From NCBI GenBank assembly GCA_019118465.1, contig DWYX01000026.1, positions 1-64,000 of the forward strand: a stretch of 64,000 bases of DNA, in the 5' to 3' direction. This DNA comes from Candidatus Limosilactobacillus faecipullorum (lineage in GTDB: Bacteria > Bacillota > Bacilli > Lactobacillales > Lactobacillaceae). The translations under genes and the position numbers were made by a program. Numbering within the stretch: position 1 is the stretch's first letter; the number at the start of each line of letters is the position of its first letter. The notes under the pieces are model-generated. The model made no database searches. It had not been told where the DNA came from and saw only the letters and a program-made list of their open reading frames with translations. Positions 27,746 to 36,794 of the stretch are shown here, piece after piece.

Positions 27746-27901
27746 TTATTTTTCTTTGATAATGTCATAAATACTATAGCCTAACCAGACAAGCCAGATA
27801 ACTAATACATCGTAGTGTTTTAGCTGCCAGGCTCTGATACTAAGGATAATAAAAATTATTATAATTATATAAGTGGAAGGCTTTTTTAAGTGATTTTTCA
27901 T
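27746..27901 (-). CDS. Putative bacteriocin immunity-like small membrane protein (module 1)
   Basis: MKNHLKKPSTYIIIIIFIILSIRAWQLKHYDVLVIWLVWLGYSIYDIIKEK; close paralog of the 30796-30960 product; gaggtt RBS before ATG at 27901. Confidence 0.65.
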   Translation of the reverse strand: MKNHLKKPSTYIIIIIFIILSIRAWQLKHYDVLVIWLVWLGYSIYDIIKEK

Positions 27902-27973: not shown

Positions 27974-28117
27974 TTAACGAATGTGTAGGTATTTTTTGAA
28001 ATCTTTAATGACTTGAGCGCCAACGTTCCTATTAAAAGGAAATGGGTGAAATGCAGATTCAGATTTGCCACCAAAAATGCGCTTTAATTTTGTGGGAGTG
28101 ATAACTTTCTTACGCAA
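27974..28117 (-). CDS. Double-glycine-leader peptide (pheromone or bacteriocin precursor), module 1
   Basis: TTG start after aaaggag; MRKKVITPTKLKRIFGG|KSESAFHPFPFNRNVGAQVIKDFKKYLHIR. Confidence 0.6.
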   Translation of the reverse strand: MRKKVITPTKLKRIFGGKSESAFHPFPFNRNVGAQVIKDFKKYLHIR

Positions 28118-28212: not shown

Positions 28213-28959
28213 TTAGTTACTAGCTGTTATTAGCTTTTTAACTTGATGATATTTAGCTAAAGGGAAGGTGCAACTGTAATCTTCTGGAAAGTAAATTAAG
28301 CGCTGTTTAAAGTCAACGGCTTTGATTTTTTTTGGATTGATCAGAAACGACTTGTGAATTCTAATGAGTTCAGGGTAATCAGCGGCCAATTGGCCTATTT
28401 TGCCATAAAATTCATACATTATTTGTTTCCCATAGAGAATAATTTTGTGAGGTGTTGTTGATGTCTCGAGAAAATAGATGGAAGTAAGATCGACTAAGAT
28501 TGTTCGCGCACCAATCGTGAGTTTTAAATGGCGGCTTGGCTGGGGAGTCTGGTCAATTGCGGTTGTTCGGTTTAATGAATCTAAGATCCCTTTAATTTGT
28601 GCATCCTCGGTTTTATTATCTTTAACAATATAATTAAGTGGTGAAATTTGGCGTTTGAGAGTTTCGATTGCTAGCTCCTGATGGGAGGTAATAAAGACAA
28701 TTTGGGCAAATTTATTTTGTTGACGGATTTTTTGAGCAATTTCAATTCCGTTAAAACTGCTTTTGAGGTCAATGTCCAGAAAATAAAGACTATTTGTTGT
28801 TAGGTGTGTATCTAAATAATGAATGATATCTTGAGCGTTTGAAGCACTTAGAACTAAATTCATATCATAATTATTAATCATAATCCAGTTTTTAATAACT
28901 GATGTATAGTGCTTTAACAAGATGCTTTCATCTTCGCAAATAAAAACCGGCAGGGTCAT
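28213..28959 (-). CDS. AgrA/PlnC-type LytTR response regulator (module 1)
   Basis: ICEDE..YFLDIDL..FITSHQE receiver; LytTR (RIHKSFLINPKKIKAVDFKQRLIYFPED). Confidence 0.92.
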   Translation of the reverse strand: MTLPVFICEDESILLKHYTSVIKNWIMINNYDMNLVLSASNAQDIIHYLDTHLTTNSLYFLDIDLKSSFNGIEIAQKIRQQNKFAQIVFITSHQELAIETLKRQISPLNYIVKDNKTEDAQIKGILDSLNRTTAIDQTPQPSRHLKLTIGARTILVDLTSIYFLETSTTPHKIILYGKQIMYEFYGKIGQLAADYPELIRIHKSFLINPKKIKAVDFKQRLIYFPEDYSCTFPLAKYHQVKKLITASN

Positions 28960-30227
28960 TGCAATTCCTCCTTGGAGATGATTAGGCTAGTCCCGAAAAT
29001 TCCATCTTCAATGTAATGGGTAAGTTCAAGGTGTGGGGATGCTCTTACAATTTCGTTAACAGTGTTCAGTCCTAGACCTTGATGTTGGTTTTTTTTACTA
29101 TAACCCTCTTGACGCATTAAATTTAGAGGTGGTAGTTTGCCTGAGTATGAATTCTCAATGATGATCTCATAAGTTTGTGCATTAATAAAGAGAATCCTTA
29201 GTTTTTTGTCAGTTGATGAAATCGCAGCTTCAATTGCATTGTCGATCAAGATTCCCAGAATGCGAACGAGCTTAACATCAGCTAAATTAAAATCAGAAAT
29301 GGGCTGTAGACATTCAAAATGAGGAGTAAGCCCTTGTTGCTTAGCTAATAAAAGTTTAGCGATGATGATTGCTTTGATGGCATCACGCTTTATATTGCTA
29401 GCTTGGGCAAAAGAGCTGAAGCTGTTATCGAGTATATGATGGGAATAATCTATAACTTCATTAAGATAGGCCTGATTAAGCGTTTTAGACGTAGTTTGTA
29501 AACCAAGAAGGAGATTTTTGTAATCGTGTCTAAATTTTCTGAGTTTGCGATAATTAGCTTCGATTTCTTTGGTATAGATCATCATCATTTTCATTTGTTC
29601 CTGTAAATGCCAAAGCTCGGTTCGTTCCCGATTTTTGCGGATGAAAACGTAAGTTAGTAAAGTGCTAAAGGTAAATTGACTAATTAGCACAAAGAGCATA
29701 AATAATTGGAATTTTCCAAGAAGGCTGAAATTTCGCAGAATTTCGGAAAATATCAGTGAAAAAAGCATAAAAATTAGGAGTTGGATGCAAATGATGTTTT
29801 TATCAGTGGGGGTTAAAGTGTAATGCCGATAAATAGCTTTAATGATATAGGCAATGGTAACCGTAAGGCACCAAGTTATAACGGTGTAACATACCACGAA
29901 TGTTATCTGATGATAAGAAGGGCGATTTAATTGAAGATTAAATAGTTTTAAAAGAATAGAACTCGTTAGGAAGGGGATAACCTCATAAAGAATCAATGCT
30001 GTTGTAATCATTAAGGCATCATCGGTTTTAGTAATAGTTGAGTTTTGCCAAGTGGACCACTTTGGAATGACAATAACAAGTATTAAACCAATGATTCCTA
30101 GGGGAACGTTGGAAACTAAAATTAGTGCTAACGGGAAACCAATGGCAACTAAGAAAGCAAAGTACATTCTTTTGCTATTAGTAGTTAAGATTTGAATGAT
30201 GGATACTAGTAACCAAAAATCAAACAA
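28956..30227 (-). CDS. AgrC/PlnB-type (HPK10-like) sensor histidine kinase (module 1); start uncertain
   Basis: FRHDYKNLLLGLQ H-box; ILIDNAIEAA N-box; GLGLNTVNEI. Confidence 0.92.
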   Translation of the reverse strand: MFDFWLLVSIIQILTTNSKRMYFAFLVAIGFPLALILVSNVPLGIIGLILVIVIPKWSTWQNSTITKTDDALMITTALILYEVIPFLTSSILLKLFNLQLNRPSYHQITFVVCYTVITWCLTVTIAYIIKAIYRHYTLTPTDKNIICIQLLIFMLFSLIFSEILRNFSLLGKFQLFMLFVLISQFTFSTLLTYVFIRKNRERTELWHLQEQMKMMMIYTKEIEANYRKLRKFRHDYKNLLLGLQTTSKTLNQAYLNEVIDYSHHILDNSFSSFAQASNIKRDAIKAIIIAKLLLAKQQGLTPHFECLQPISDFNLADVKLVRILGILIDNAIEAAISSTDKKLRILFINAQTYEIIIENSYSGKLPPLNLMRQEGYSKKNQHQGLGLNTVNEIVRASPHLELTHYIEDGIFGTSLIISKEELQ

Positions 30228-30795: not shown

Positions 30796-30960
30796 TTAAT
30801 TGAACTTTTCTTTAACAAGGTCGTAGATGCTATAACCTAACCATCCAAGCCAAATAACTAATACGTCGTAATGTTTGAGTTGCCAGGCTCGGATACTAAG
30901 AACCAAAAATATTAACAAAATATAGGTATTAGGATTCTTAAAATAGTTTTTCATATTCAT
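30796..30960 (-). CDS. Putative bacteriocin immunity-like small membrane protein (module 2)
   Basis: MNMKNYFKNPNTYILLIFLVLSIRAWQLKHYDVLVIWLGWLGYSIYDLVKEKFN; 4-bp gap from the bacteriocin stop codon. Confidence 0.65.
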   Translation of the reverse strand: MNMKNYFKNPNTYILLIFLVLSIRAWQLKHYDVLVIWLGWLGYSIYDLVKEKFN

Positions 30961-30964
30961 TAAA

Positions 30965-31129
30965 TTACCCACAAATTCCAATTGCTTGACAAGCACCGTG
31001 TGCAAATCCCCGGGCAAAATCATAAGCGTTGTTGGCTGATTGCGCCCGGCGCCGAATGCATTGTGTGGAGTAACATTTCATGCCACCAATAATTTTTTTG
31101 AGTTCAAATGATGTAATTTTCTTGATCAT
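30965..31129 (-). CDS. Class II bacteriocin-like precursor with double-glycine leader (module 2)
   Basis: MIKKITSFELKKIIGG|MKCYSTQCIRRRAQSANNAYDFARGFAHGACQAIGICG; RBS aaaggagg; 54 aa, absent from the ORF track. Confidence 0.8.
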   Translation of the reverse strand: MIKKITSFELKKIIGGMKCYSTQCIRRRAQSANNAYDFARGFAHGACQAIGICG

Positions 31130-31153
31130 AATTTTAAGCCTCCTTTAACTATC

Positions 31154-31191
31154 AGTTTAGTAGCTTTACAAGAAGACAAGTTAAAAATGTC
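31154..31191 (-). promoter_or_regulatory. Module 2 promoter: GACATTTTTAACTT-N18-TAAACT
   Basis: Matches module 1 promoter architecture. Confidence 0.6.
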
Positions 31192-31222
31192 ATGAAGTGG
31201 GTGAAATCGATCTTGAAATGAA

Positions 31223-31961
31223 CTAATGGATAAGGTTCTTTAAAGTGCGAACTTTTGAGAGTGGAAATGAACAAGTATAATTTCCTGGGAAATAAATTAA
31301 GTGTTTTTTTAAAGTCAATCGCTTGAACTTTGTTAGGGTTAATTAAAAACGACTTGTGGACGCGAATTAATTCCGGAAAATCTTTTTCTAGTTGGCTAAT
31401 CTTTCCGTAAAATTCGTACATAATGTCCTTTCCATAAAGGATAACTTTATGAGGAGTAGGAGAAGTTTCAAGAAAGTAGATACAAGAAAGATTTACTCGG
31501 ATTTGGCGAGAGCCAATTTTAAAGGTTAAGTGACGTTGCGACGAAGTGAGAATATCGATGTCGGTAGTTTTATTCAGACCATCAAGAATTCGTTTTATTT
31601 GTGTTGCTTCCGTTTGGCCGTCTTTAACGATGTAATTAAGCGGGGCAATTTGTCGTTTTAAAGTTTCCAGGGCTAGCTCTTGGTGAGAAGTAATAAAAAC
31701 AATTTGGGCATACGAATTCTTATGCCGAATTTGTTGGGCTAATTCGATTCCTTCTAAGTAATGGCCGAGATCGATATCTAAGAAAAAAAGGCTATTAGTT
31801 AGTTGATGATTTATTAAATAGTTGGTTATCTTATCCGCCGTATTAGTAGCTAATACTACTTGCATATCATAGTCGTTAATCATAATCCAATTTTGAACGA
31901 TTTGGCGATAATGACTTAGGAGTAGGGGTTCATCGTCGCAGATAAAAATGGGGAGGGTCAT
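31223..31961 (-). pseudogene. LytTR response regulator (module 2) with +1 frameshift in an A7 tract; zero-frame ORF runs to 31152
   Basis: Removing one A from the T7 tract (31314-31320, plus strand) restores DFKKHLIYFPGNYTCSFPLSKVRTLKNLIH*, colinear with the paralog's DFKQRLIYFPEDYSCTFPLAKYHQVKKLITASN*. Confidence 0.8.
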
Positions 31962-31962
31962 T

Positions 31963-33228
31963 TTAAAGGTCCTTTCTAATTATGAGACTCGAATAGAAAT
32001 GGTTATTTTCAAGGTAATGGGTTAGCTCGACTTGGGGATATTTAGCCAGAATTTCATTGACATTACTAAGACCAATTCCCCGATGCCCGGGCTTACTAGT
32101 AAACCCGGGGCGATGCATTTTTGCGATCGTTGGAATTTCACCTTGGTAAGTATTTTCAATACTAATTTCGATTCCCTTAGGAATGGTAATAAAAAGGACA
32201 GTTAATTTTCGGGTGCTTGAATTGACTGCAGCTTCAATCGCATTGTCAAGCAGAATTCCCATGATCCGGACTAAAGTAACGGTTGGTAGGTTAATTTTAG
32301 TAATTATGCGAAGACATTCAAATTTTACGTTTAGTTTTTGTTGTTCAGCTTGGAGAAGTTTGGTAATCACTAAGGACTTAATTGCTGGTAATTTTAAGTT
32401 ACTAAGTTGAGCGAAGGGGGTTACGCTGTGATTTAAAGTTTGATTAGAGTATTTAATAATCTCGTTTAGATAGGCTTGGTTAGCCTGGTTATCTTGGACT
32501 TTAATGACTGCCAAAAGATTTTTGTAATCATGACGGAATTTACGCATTTCGCGGTAGTTTTTTTCGAGATTAGTAGTATAGAGGTTTGTCATTTTGATCT
32601 GTTCTTTAAGATGATCAATTTCGAGTCGTTCTCGATTTTTGTGAATAGAAAAGTAGGTTAAGAAAAGCGAAAAAACAAGTTGGAAGATGAGGATTCCGGC
32701 AATCAAGAATTGATAGGTCCAAAAAATTTTTAAGAAGCGAAAAACTTCGGCAAAAATAATAGTGAATAGCAAAAAGAACGCAAATTGAAGGGTTAGAATT
32801 TGTTGGTCTTCAACCGGAAGGTGAAGATGATCTAACCACTTGCGAACTAGGAGGGCAAGTGAAATTGTGACGAGCCAGGTAAAGAACATATAGCCTACGA
32901 TTATAAAAGAGTCAATGTGACTACCAATCCGAAAGAATCGGAAAAATAAAAGGCTAGTGGTAAATGGAATAATTTGGTGGATTACTAAGGCAAGTGTAAG
33001 CATTAAGTGCTGATTGTTTAAGCAGTTAGGTGAAGGTTGATGCCGTTGAAGTAATAAAAAGGGGACGGTAAAGATAGCGATGATATTAGCAATATCGTGC
33101 CAAAATAGTAATAATGTAATTGGAAAACTTAAGATAAATAGGGCCATAAAGTAAAATTTATTTTGAATTCGTGTTAATAGTTTAATAATTACTAATAGGA
33201 GCCAAAGATCGGTTAATTCAATCCCCAA
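31963..33228 (-). CDS. AgrC/PlnB-type sensor histidine kinase (module 2); start uncertain
   Basis: FRHDYKNLLAVIK; ILLDNAIEAA; GIGLSNVNEI; paralogous to 28956-30227. Confidence 0.92.
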   Translation of the reverse strand: MGIELTDLWLLLVIIKLLTRIQNKFYFMALFILSFPITLLLFWHDIANIIAIFTVPFLLLQRHQPSPNCLNNQHLMLTLALVIHQIIPFTTSLLFFRFFRIGSHIDSFIIVGYMFFTWLVTISLALLVRKWLDHLHLPVEDQQILTLQFAFFLLFTIIFAEVFRFLKIFWTYQFLIAGILIFQLVFSLFLTYFSIHKNRERLEIDHLKEQIKMTNLYTTNLEKNYREMRKFRHDYKNLLAVIKVQDNQANQAYLNEIIKYSNQTLNHSVTPFAQLSNLKLPAIKSLVITKLLQAEQQKLNVKFECLRIITKINLPTVTLVRIMGILLDNAIEAAVNSSTRKLTVLFITIPKGIEISIENTYQGEIPTIAKMHRPGFTSKPGHRGIGLSNVNEILAKYPQVELTHYLENNHFYSSLIIRKDL

Positions 33229-33317: not shown

Positions 33318-33735
33318 TTAGTAAAGGGTATTATTTAGCCACAGTTTGTAGTAGAGCCCCTGTTGATTAATTAATTCTTCGCGATCCCCTTGCTCAATTA
33401 ACTGGCCATGATCCAAGACCATAACTTGGTCATACTTTTTTGCAATTGGAAGGTAGTGGGCAATGAAGATGATGGTTTTGTTCGGTAATTTGGTTTTGTA
33501 ACTGGGGATCGAGGCCGCTTGTTACCTCATCAAAAATTAAGACCGGGGTATCTCTTAACAATGCGCGGGCAATGGCTAAGCGCTGCTTTTGACCACCAGA
33601 TAGGTTGTGACCACCTTCTTCAAGTGGCGAATCATATTGTAATGGTAACTTCTCAATAAAGTTACTAATTTGGGCGATTTGGCAAGCAGATTCATTGATG
33701 ACGGACCTCGAAAAAATAATAGTTATGCTAAAGAG
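33318..33735 (-). pseudogene. Remnant of an exporter-type ABC transporter NBD (possibly bacteriocin exporter)
   Basis: [47 protein letters not shown], then a frame change to [53 protein letters not shown]. Confidence 0.8.
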
Positions 33736-34650: not shown

Positions 34651-35889
34651 TCAAAGTGTTAATTTAAATCGATTTAGCATTGCTTTTAATGGTGATTCAT
34701 TGCTGTAAGAGAAGACGTTATTTTTGTATACTTTGGCTGAAAAAAGATACATTGCTATGGCGAATGCAATTGTAATTAACAGTGAGATATAACCATCACT
34801 ATAAGAAGCAGCCCCCCTTGCAATACGGACGGGCATCAATCCTTGGCTCATATATGGGAGATAAGACAACACTTTGGAGATTGTTAAGTTAGGATTGCTC
34901 TGAGTTAAAAAGCTCAAGAAATAGGGAATTAGCATTAAACTTGAGACACTACTTGTTGCTTGTGAAATGTCTTCAGCTATTGAAACGAACGATGCAAAAA
35001 TAGCTGCTAAAAAGACATATAATGCTAATGATGCAATTGTTAACATTGCTACTATCACAATGTATTGAATACTTATACCACTTAAGTACTTGTTTAAATC
35101 AATTAAGTTTTTATGGAACTTTGAAAGAATTAGATAACCAATTCCTCCAATAATGGTGTAGATAAATACTTGAAAAAATATTAAATATGCTATACCAAGC
35201 ATTTTGCCGGCGAAGTGTTTGTCTGCAGGAATAGCGGCTATTAAGCCTTCAATTAAATGATTGCCTTTTTCATTTCCAATCTCAGCTCCTGTGATACTGA
35301 TATAACTTGTAAGAAAGAAAAAGGCAATAATAACTGCAAATTCACTAAAATACTGAGCAGACTCTGAATCATTTAACTTAATAGTGTTCCCATTATAGCT
35401 AACATTTTCCTTATATAAGTGGACTTCTTGCGTGATGTTTTGCCATTGGCTTTCGCTGAGCCCTGCAATACTTGCCATATATTGGGATCTAATAACTGTC
35501 AAATTCTGCTTTAGTTCATTGATCGGATTGTCGGAATTTGTGTTCGCATTGTATTTATATTTCACTTTAGAGAAATCGTTATTAACGTACAAGATACCAT
35601 CGACTACATTATCAGCCAAATCTATTTTTAGTCTTTCCTTATTTGTAGTATTAACTTTGGTGTTTATTTTATATGTTGAAGCTTTCTGGTTTTGTAAGGC
35701 GGCTTTAATATTTTTATTGGCTACTACTGCAATTAATGCTTTATGAGATGAGTTTTGATTATCAATATATTTAGTAAATCCTATGCCAATAATTAATAAG
35801 ACAATTGGCGCCAGTATCATCCAATAATATGTTGGAGAGAGAACTCTTTTTTTAAAGACCATTTTTGCTACCACAAGTATTTTATGCAT
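34651..35889 (-). CDS. ABC transporter permease (ABC-2/NatB-like)
   Basis: 412 aa, N-terminal TM, long extracellular domain, C-terminal TM cluster; coupled to ATPase. Confidence 0.85.
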   Translation of the reverse strand: MHKILVVAKMVFKKRVLSPTYYWMILAPIVLLIIGIGFTKYIDNQNSSHKALIAVVANKNIKAALQNQKASTYKINTKVNTTNKERLKIDLADNVVDGILYVNNDFSKVKYKYNANTNSDNPINELKQNLTVIRSQYMASIAGLSESQWQNITQEVHLYKENVSYNGNTIKLNDSESAQYFSEFAVIIAFFFLTSYISITGAEIGNEKGNHLIEGLIAAIPADKHFAGKMLGIAYLIFFQVFIYTIIGGIGYLILSKFHKNLIDLNKYLSGISIQYIVIVAMLTIASLALYVFLAAIFASFVSIAEDISQATSSVSSLMLIPYFLSFLTQSNPNLTISKVLSYLPYMSQGLMPVRIARGAASYSDGYISLLITIAFAIAMYLFSAKVYKNNVFSYSNESPLKAMLNRFKLTL

Positions 35890-36794
35890 TCTTCATATTC
35901 TCCTCATTGATAACTTTTCTAAATATATCGTCAAGAGTAGGCTCTAATAAGCGATAACCTGTTAAAGATGATTGCTTTTTCGCTACATTAATCGCTAACC
36001 TTGCATTTTTTTCGGAGTCAAAGGTGAGGACTTTCCCTGGATAGTCATTTTTTTGGTGGAGCACGCCGTTGAAATTAATAGGGGAGAGGTGGTCAAAAAT
36101 GCCTTCCAAATATACTTTATTTTTTTTCAAATTGAGATCTAATTTGATTGATTGGTCCATAAAGTCTTTGCTCTCCATTTACTAACATAAGTATTTTGTC
36201 CGAAACTGCTGTCACATTATTCATATTGTGAGAAGAGAAGATAACTGCAACTCCATCTTGTTTTAATTGCTTTACAACTTTGATTAGAAGACCAATATTT
36301 ACCGGATCTAATCCTGAGAATGGTTCATCAAGAATTACTAATTTAGGTTTATGAATTAATGTTGTAATTAATTGAACCTTTTGTTGGTTACCCTTTGATA
36401 GATTTTTAATTAGTGTTCTTTCAGTACCTTTTACGGATAACTTTTCTAACCAGAGAGGTAATTCTTGACTAGCTTTTTCCTTGCTGTAATTGTGCAATTG
36501 TGCAAAATACAAAACCTGTTGTTTAATTGTCATGTCTAAATATAAACCACGTTCTTCTGGTAAATATCCAATGTTATCCAAGAACTTATTATTTAGTTTT
36601 TGAGAATTTATTGTTATTGCTCCAGCATCTGGAGCAATAAAATTCAAAATCATTTTAAAAGTTGTAGACTTGCCAGCCCCATTTTGACCAACCAGACCAA
36701 TTACTTCTCCTGGATTAACCTCAAAGCTTAATTGTTTAACTGCTGTAACGTTAGAAAATTTTTTAGTTATCCCTTTTACTTTTAGCATTGTCAT
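35882..36794 (-). pseudogene. ABC transporter ATP-binding protein (NatA-like), frameshifted at an A8 tract
   Basis: ORF 36117-36794 ends QFEKK*; ORF 35882-36178 continues KNKVYLEGIFDHLSPIN...; removal of one A at T8 (36120-36127, plus strand) fuses them. Confidence 0.8.

Follow-up and report, generated by a model that had tools for sequence, protein, structure and literature searches.

Gene content of the locus

A gene for a 54-residue precursor lies on the minus strand (31129..30965) of the window, the 64,000-nucleotide stretch of DNA analysed here; the plus strand is not open at this place (Table 1). The preliminary description had given the exact coordinates of this reading frame and proposed a class II bacteriocin-like precursor with a double-glycine (GG) leader; it did not name the strand. 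Both points were borne out. The leader, MIKKITSFELKKIIGG, is preceded by a perfect ribosome-binding site (RBS); the mature part after it has 38 residues, a predicted pI of 9.2, a charge of about +3.5 and a computed monoisotopic mass of 4137.91 in the reduced form and 4133.88 with two disulfides. A GG leader joined to a small cationic mature peptide, which is a class IIb criterion, is therefore present. Two cysteines lie near the N-terminus and two near the C-terminus (Cys3, Cys8, Cys31, and Cys37), as first described, and the YGNGV box of pediocin-like class IIa peptides is indeed absent. A GxxxG-type helix contact motif occupies the same place as in plantaricin F (PlnF).

When the window was scanned for an RBS followed by a GG leader, 4 candidates were returned, 2 of them convincing, against a mean of 0.8 per window in 40 Markov-1 simulated windows that kept its dinucleotide composition; no simulated candidate had at least four cysteines in its mature part. 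The precursor is therefore more than a product of chance, and it is a real small bacteriocin gene of a lactic acid bacterium. The source clearly belongs among relatives of the Lactobacillaceae; phosphoketolase, genome sizes and 43% GC hint, tentatively, at a heterofermenter such as Limosilactobacillus. The AlphaFold model of the peptide (pLDDT 56) was too weak to interpret, and a direct phmmer search of the PDB with the window peptide gave zero matches.

Table 1. Features of the two cassettes and their surroundings in the window.
Feature	Coordinates	Strand	Remarks
54-aa GG-leader precursor	30965..31129	-	PlnF-like candidate β; four Cys; GxxxG is GFAHG; mature MKCYSTQCIRRRAQSANNAYDFARGFAHGACQAIGICG
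RBS AAAGGAGG	31139..31146	-	9 nt before ATG of precursor gene
Small membrane protein, 52 aa, candidate immunity protein	30796..30954	-	78% identical to 27746-27901 protein
RR1, LytTR response regulator	31152..31961	-	65% identity with RR2 in residues 1-226; frame lost beyond
HK1, AgrC/PlnB-type histidine kinase	31963..33228	-	
Transporter remnant, C-terminal ATPase end of peptide cleavage/export ABC transporter	33339..33690	-	frameshifted
HK2, paralogous histidine kinase	28956..30227	-	43% to HK1
RR2, paralogous LytTR response regulator	28213..28959	-	intact
Second GG-leader peptide, PlnA-like candidate pheromone	27974..28117	-	TTG start; mature KSESAFHPFPFNRNVGAQVIKDFKKYLHIR
Paralogous small membrane protein, second candidate immunity protein	27746..27901	-	

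The precursor gene belongs to one of two minus-strand cassettes (33228-30796 and 30227-27746), each arranged as histidine kinase, LytTR regulator, GG peptide and small membrane protein. The kinases and regulators of both are AgrC/AgrA-like. Conservation between the paralogues is much higher for the small membrane proteins (78%) than for the kinases (43%). No direct repeats that could serve as operators were found upstream of either peptide gene. RR1 loses its frame after an A-run at 31304-31310, and the remainder does not match RR2; this could be a real mutation, a phase-variable tract or an assembly error. The transporter remnant lies upstream of HK1. Further upstream, positions 34651-36794 encode a two-gene ABC exporter (ATPase and permease) that is not of the C39 type and might act as a pump for resistance or immunity.

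Homologues and their gene clusters

The mature sequence had at first been left unrecognised. Its assignment to the bacteriocins stands, whereas the picture of an isolated novel peptide does not, since homologues exist and a relationship to PlnF was found. Searching with tblastn recovered homologues in plasmids of Lactiplantibacillus plantarum, so the peptide is not a one-off; those in Companilactobacillus formosensis, C. nantensis, Lentilactobacillus kisonensis and genome G036 were obtained by profile or whole-genome searches. A single-sequence scan of genome contigs gave no match, which the alignment-based scan overcame. The homologues are 37-51% identical. All four cysteines are kept in the four further species in the invariant pattern CYxxxC...GxCQxxGxC, and Tyr4, the GG and Gln32 are likewise invariant. 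In window numbering, C3, Y4, C8, R12, F22, G29, C31, Q32, G35, and C37 are kept in all complete members of the Cys type. The G036 homologue is truncated and has lost the second cysteine pair. Searches of phages and viral contigs gave no match for the peptide, and it is absent from the 53 other genomes of the genus, which gave weak matches only.

In C. formosensis, C. nantensis and the L. plantarum plasmids, an α-like GG-leader peptide with the motif GKRxGR or GERVGR (also GKRxGRVAV) directly precedes the β gene, and a gene for a small membrane protein follows or overlaps it. The 52-residue protein of the window resembles its counterparts after β, with z 7.2 for C. formosensis and z 6.5 for C. 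nantensis. Export genes (PCAT and HlyD) lie near β in C. nantensis and in the plasmids. Next in the plasmid clusters come genes for a homologue of the disulfide isomerase PedC/BrcD, a C39 transporter and an HlyD protein. The G036 cluster comprises PedC, the truncated β and a C39 transporter; an α gene was looked for in this genome and none was found. In L. kisonensis, the α gene is broken by a stop. The PedC/BrcD homologues of the plasmids and G036 match TIGR01295 with E values of 1e-26 and 5e-22, under the curated cut-off, and the plasmid one is annotated as hypothetical. Among the 13 L. plantarum plasmid records that carry the Cys-type β, none lists a gene for it; the gene table is incomplete. 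Cys-type pairs may therefore be overlooked and escape genome miners. In records L031 (6001-6177) and L090, for example, β is unlisted and its PedC neighbour is described merely as a hypothetical protein.

Relationship to plantaricin F

A second, Cys-free branch has Ala at the first two cysteine positions (HAYNAAAIRRNN...GFFHGFF); in L. plantarum 16, L. pentosus KW1 and genome G178 it is encoded together with an α peptide and a CPBP-type protein. Such pairs lie at L033 5806-7029, L034 4822-6039 and L006 344-1300; one chromosome of G178 holds four β matches, perhaps because an assembly end was duplicated. The window peptide is a homologue of these Cys-free cousins (z about 8), which themselves resemble PlnF (z about 9; PDB 2rlw, E 0.11) and whose α peptides resemble PlnE (z 5.3-5.9). 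The cousins link the Cys-type family to PlnF. The window peptide itself aligns to PlnF with z 6.4, a score reached by 0/3000 shuffles, and the Cys-branch and PlnF profiles match in hhalign over residues 1-30 (probability 95%, E 3e-8). The extension ACQAIGICG, which runs past the end of PlnF, carries the second cysteine pair.

State of the cluster in this strain

A profile search for an α partner in the window and in its own 88% complete genome returned only a spurious match (E 3.2). An adjacent gene for the complementary peptide, another class IIb criterion, is found in three relatives and not in the window. Neither a C39 peptidase/transporter nor PedC was found in the same 88% complete assembly. 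No close kinase occurs in the 53 other genomes of the genus (best 30%); the cluster was probably acquired horizontally. With no α, C39 transporter or PedC found, and with frameshifts in the transporter remnant and in RR1, it is probably silent or decaying here, unless the missing parts are unassembled. Absent expression or activity in this strain is quite possible and would be compatible with a bacteriocin; it would not refute that identity, because the α, C39 transporter and PedC of the relatives' clusters were not found here.

We give an even chance to the gene being a mere relic without a product in this strain, which is compatible with its identity as a β subunit gene. The frameshifted RR1, the transporter remnant and a genome in which neither C39 peptidase nor PedC was found point that way, but the reading frame, RBS, leader and all four cysteines of the peptide are intact, the genome is merely 88% complete, and the single A-run frameshift could be an assembly error.

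A putative β subunit with a cysteine pair at each end

The window gene most probably (about 0.7) encodes the precursor of the β, PlnF-like subunit of a class IIb two-peptide bacteriocin, from a lineage with a cysteine pair at both peptide ends. This reading, drawn from sequence comparison, is supported by the order of genes in the relatives, where β stands between a GG-leader α immediately before it and a small membrane protein, by the export and PedC-type genes nearby, and by the PlnF homology, the shared GxxxG and the invariant cysteines. Against it count the α peptide not found here or in G036 and broken in L. kisonensis, so that α-β pairing is not universal; the absence of PedC and C39 from what was found in this genome; family models that score under their cut-offs; and the weak direct similarity to PlnF of the Cys-type β peptides other than the window's.

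In gallocin A, a thioredoxin-like gene is important and activity is lost on reduction (PMC10100652). This precedent, and the PedC-type proteins adjoining the relatives' genes, suggest that the four invariant cysteines form disulfides, paired 3-8/31-37 or crossed; in the genome of the window, no PedC was found. A complete system would work as follows. Quorum sensing of the PlnA/B/C kind would switch the bacteriocin on; a C39 ABC transporter would cut the GG leader and export the 38-residue peptide; and a PedC-type protein would help to form two disulfides. The GxxxG helix (GFAHG) would then pack against the GxxxG of α (GKRVG), α and β together would permeabilise the membrane of related bacteria, and the adjoining small membrane protein would give immunity.

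The retention of β in three genomes where α is missing or broken (the window, G036 and L. kisonensis) could instead mean that the peptide acts on its own, as a one-peptide (class IId) disulfide bacteriocin freed from its need for α, with the cysteine pairs taking over the stabilising role of the partner. We consider this unlikely: α adjoins β in the best preserved clusters, and decay is the better fit to a G036 β without its second cysteine pair and to a damaged window cluster. Its evolutionary form, in which a PlnF-derived peptide turned stand-alone through two terminal disulfides and α was lost independently in three genera, seems to us improbable. It is also doubtful that α is encoded apart, as the second-cassette peptide. 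Its cassette is paralogous, the small membrane protein there being nearly identical, and the peptide has the letters SAF and RxVG in common with α. It lacks GxxxG, however, shows no significant similarity to any α in local alignments (p 0.09-0.97) and significantly resembles the pheromone plantaricin A (z 4.9, p 4e-4). The same resemblance, and the kinase-regulator-peptide order of both cassettes, could make the window peptide, which directly follows HK1 and RR1, the autoinducer of that pair. This is very unlikely, as the plasmid homologues do not adjoin kinases and the mature part resembles PlnF, with GxxxG and four cysteines kept. Known GG pheromones of this type are also shorter.

The exact peptide strings had no match in the openly accessible literature searched. 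A Lactobacillus pan-genome survey lists, in its class IIb table, a different pair for L. nantensis and not the Cys-type one. The four-Cys PlnF branch, with its invariant cysteines, PedC helpers and Cys-to-Ala cousins, offers a natural comparison for asking if two-peptide bacteriocins can have disulfides in place of flexible ends.

Comparison with known bacteriocins

GxxxG helix contacts and membrane pores are established features of class IIb bacteriocins (PMC5471241), and most of their peptides, plantaricin EF included, are stated to be cysteine-free (PMC10100652). Lactococcin G β and enterocin 1071B (NF038034) share with the window peptide a short AYDFxxGxAxG segment with GxxxG (z 7.4), but the similarity is confined to 11 residues, the cysteines are absent from them, and the family model gives 22.3 bits against a cut-off of 37. 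The transporter remnant is most like the exporter of pEF1071 (enterocin 1071). Gallocin A, brochocin C, thermophilin 13 and ABP-118 (PMC10100652) form a disulfide subgroup of class IIb and are likewise two-peptide bacteriocins with cysteines, and gallocin A has a thioredoxin-like helper gene; in these systems, however, two cysteines per peptide hold a longer helical hairpin with few charges, whereas the window peptide is short, cationic, of the PlnF type and has four. With plantaricin EF the window peptide shares a GG leader, a cationic N-terminal half, a C-terminal RGFxHG with GxxxG, and, in the relatives, pairing with an α that is PlnE-like in the Cys-free branch. It differs in that α was not found in the window genome, and in its four conserved cysteines, with CYxxxC replacing AYxxxG at the N-terminus and ACQAIGICG added at the C-terminus; the neighbour of β is a small membrane protein in the Cys branch and a CPBP-type protein in the Cys-free one.
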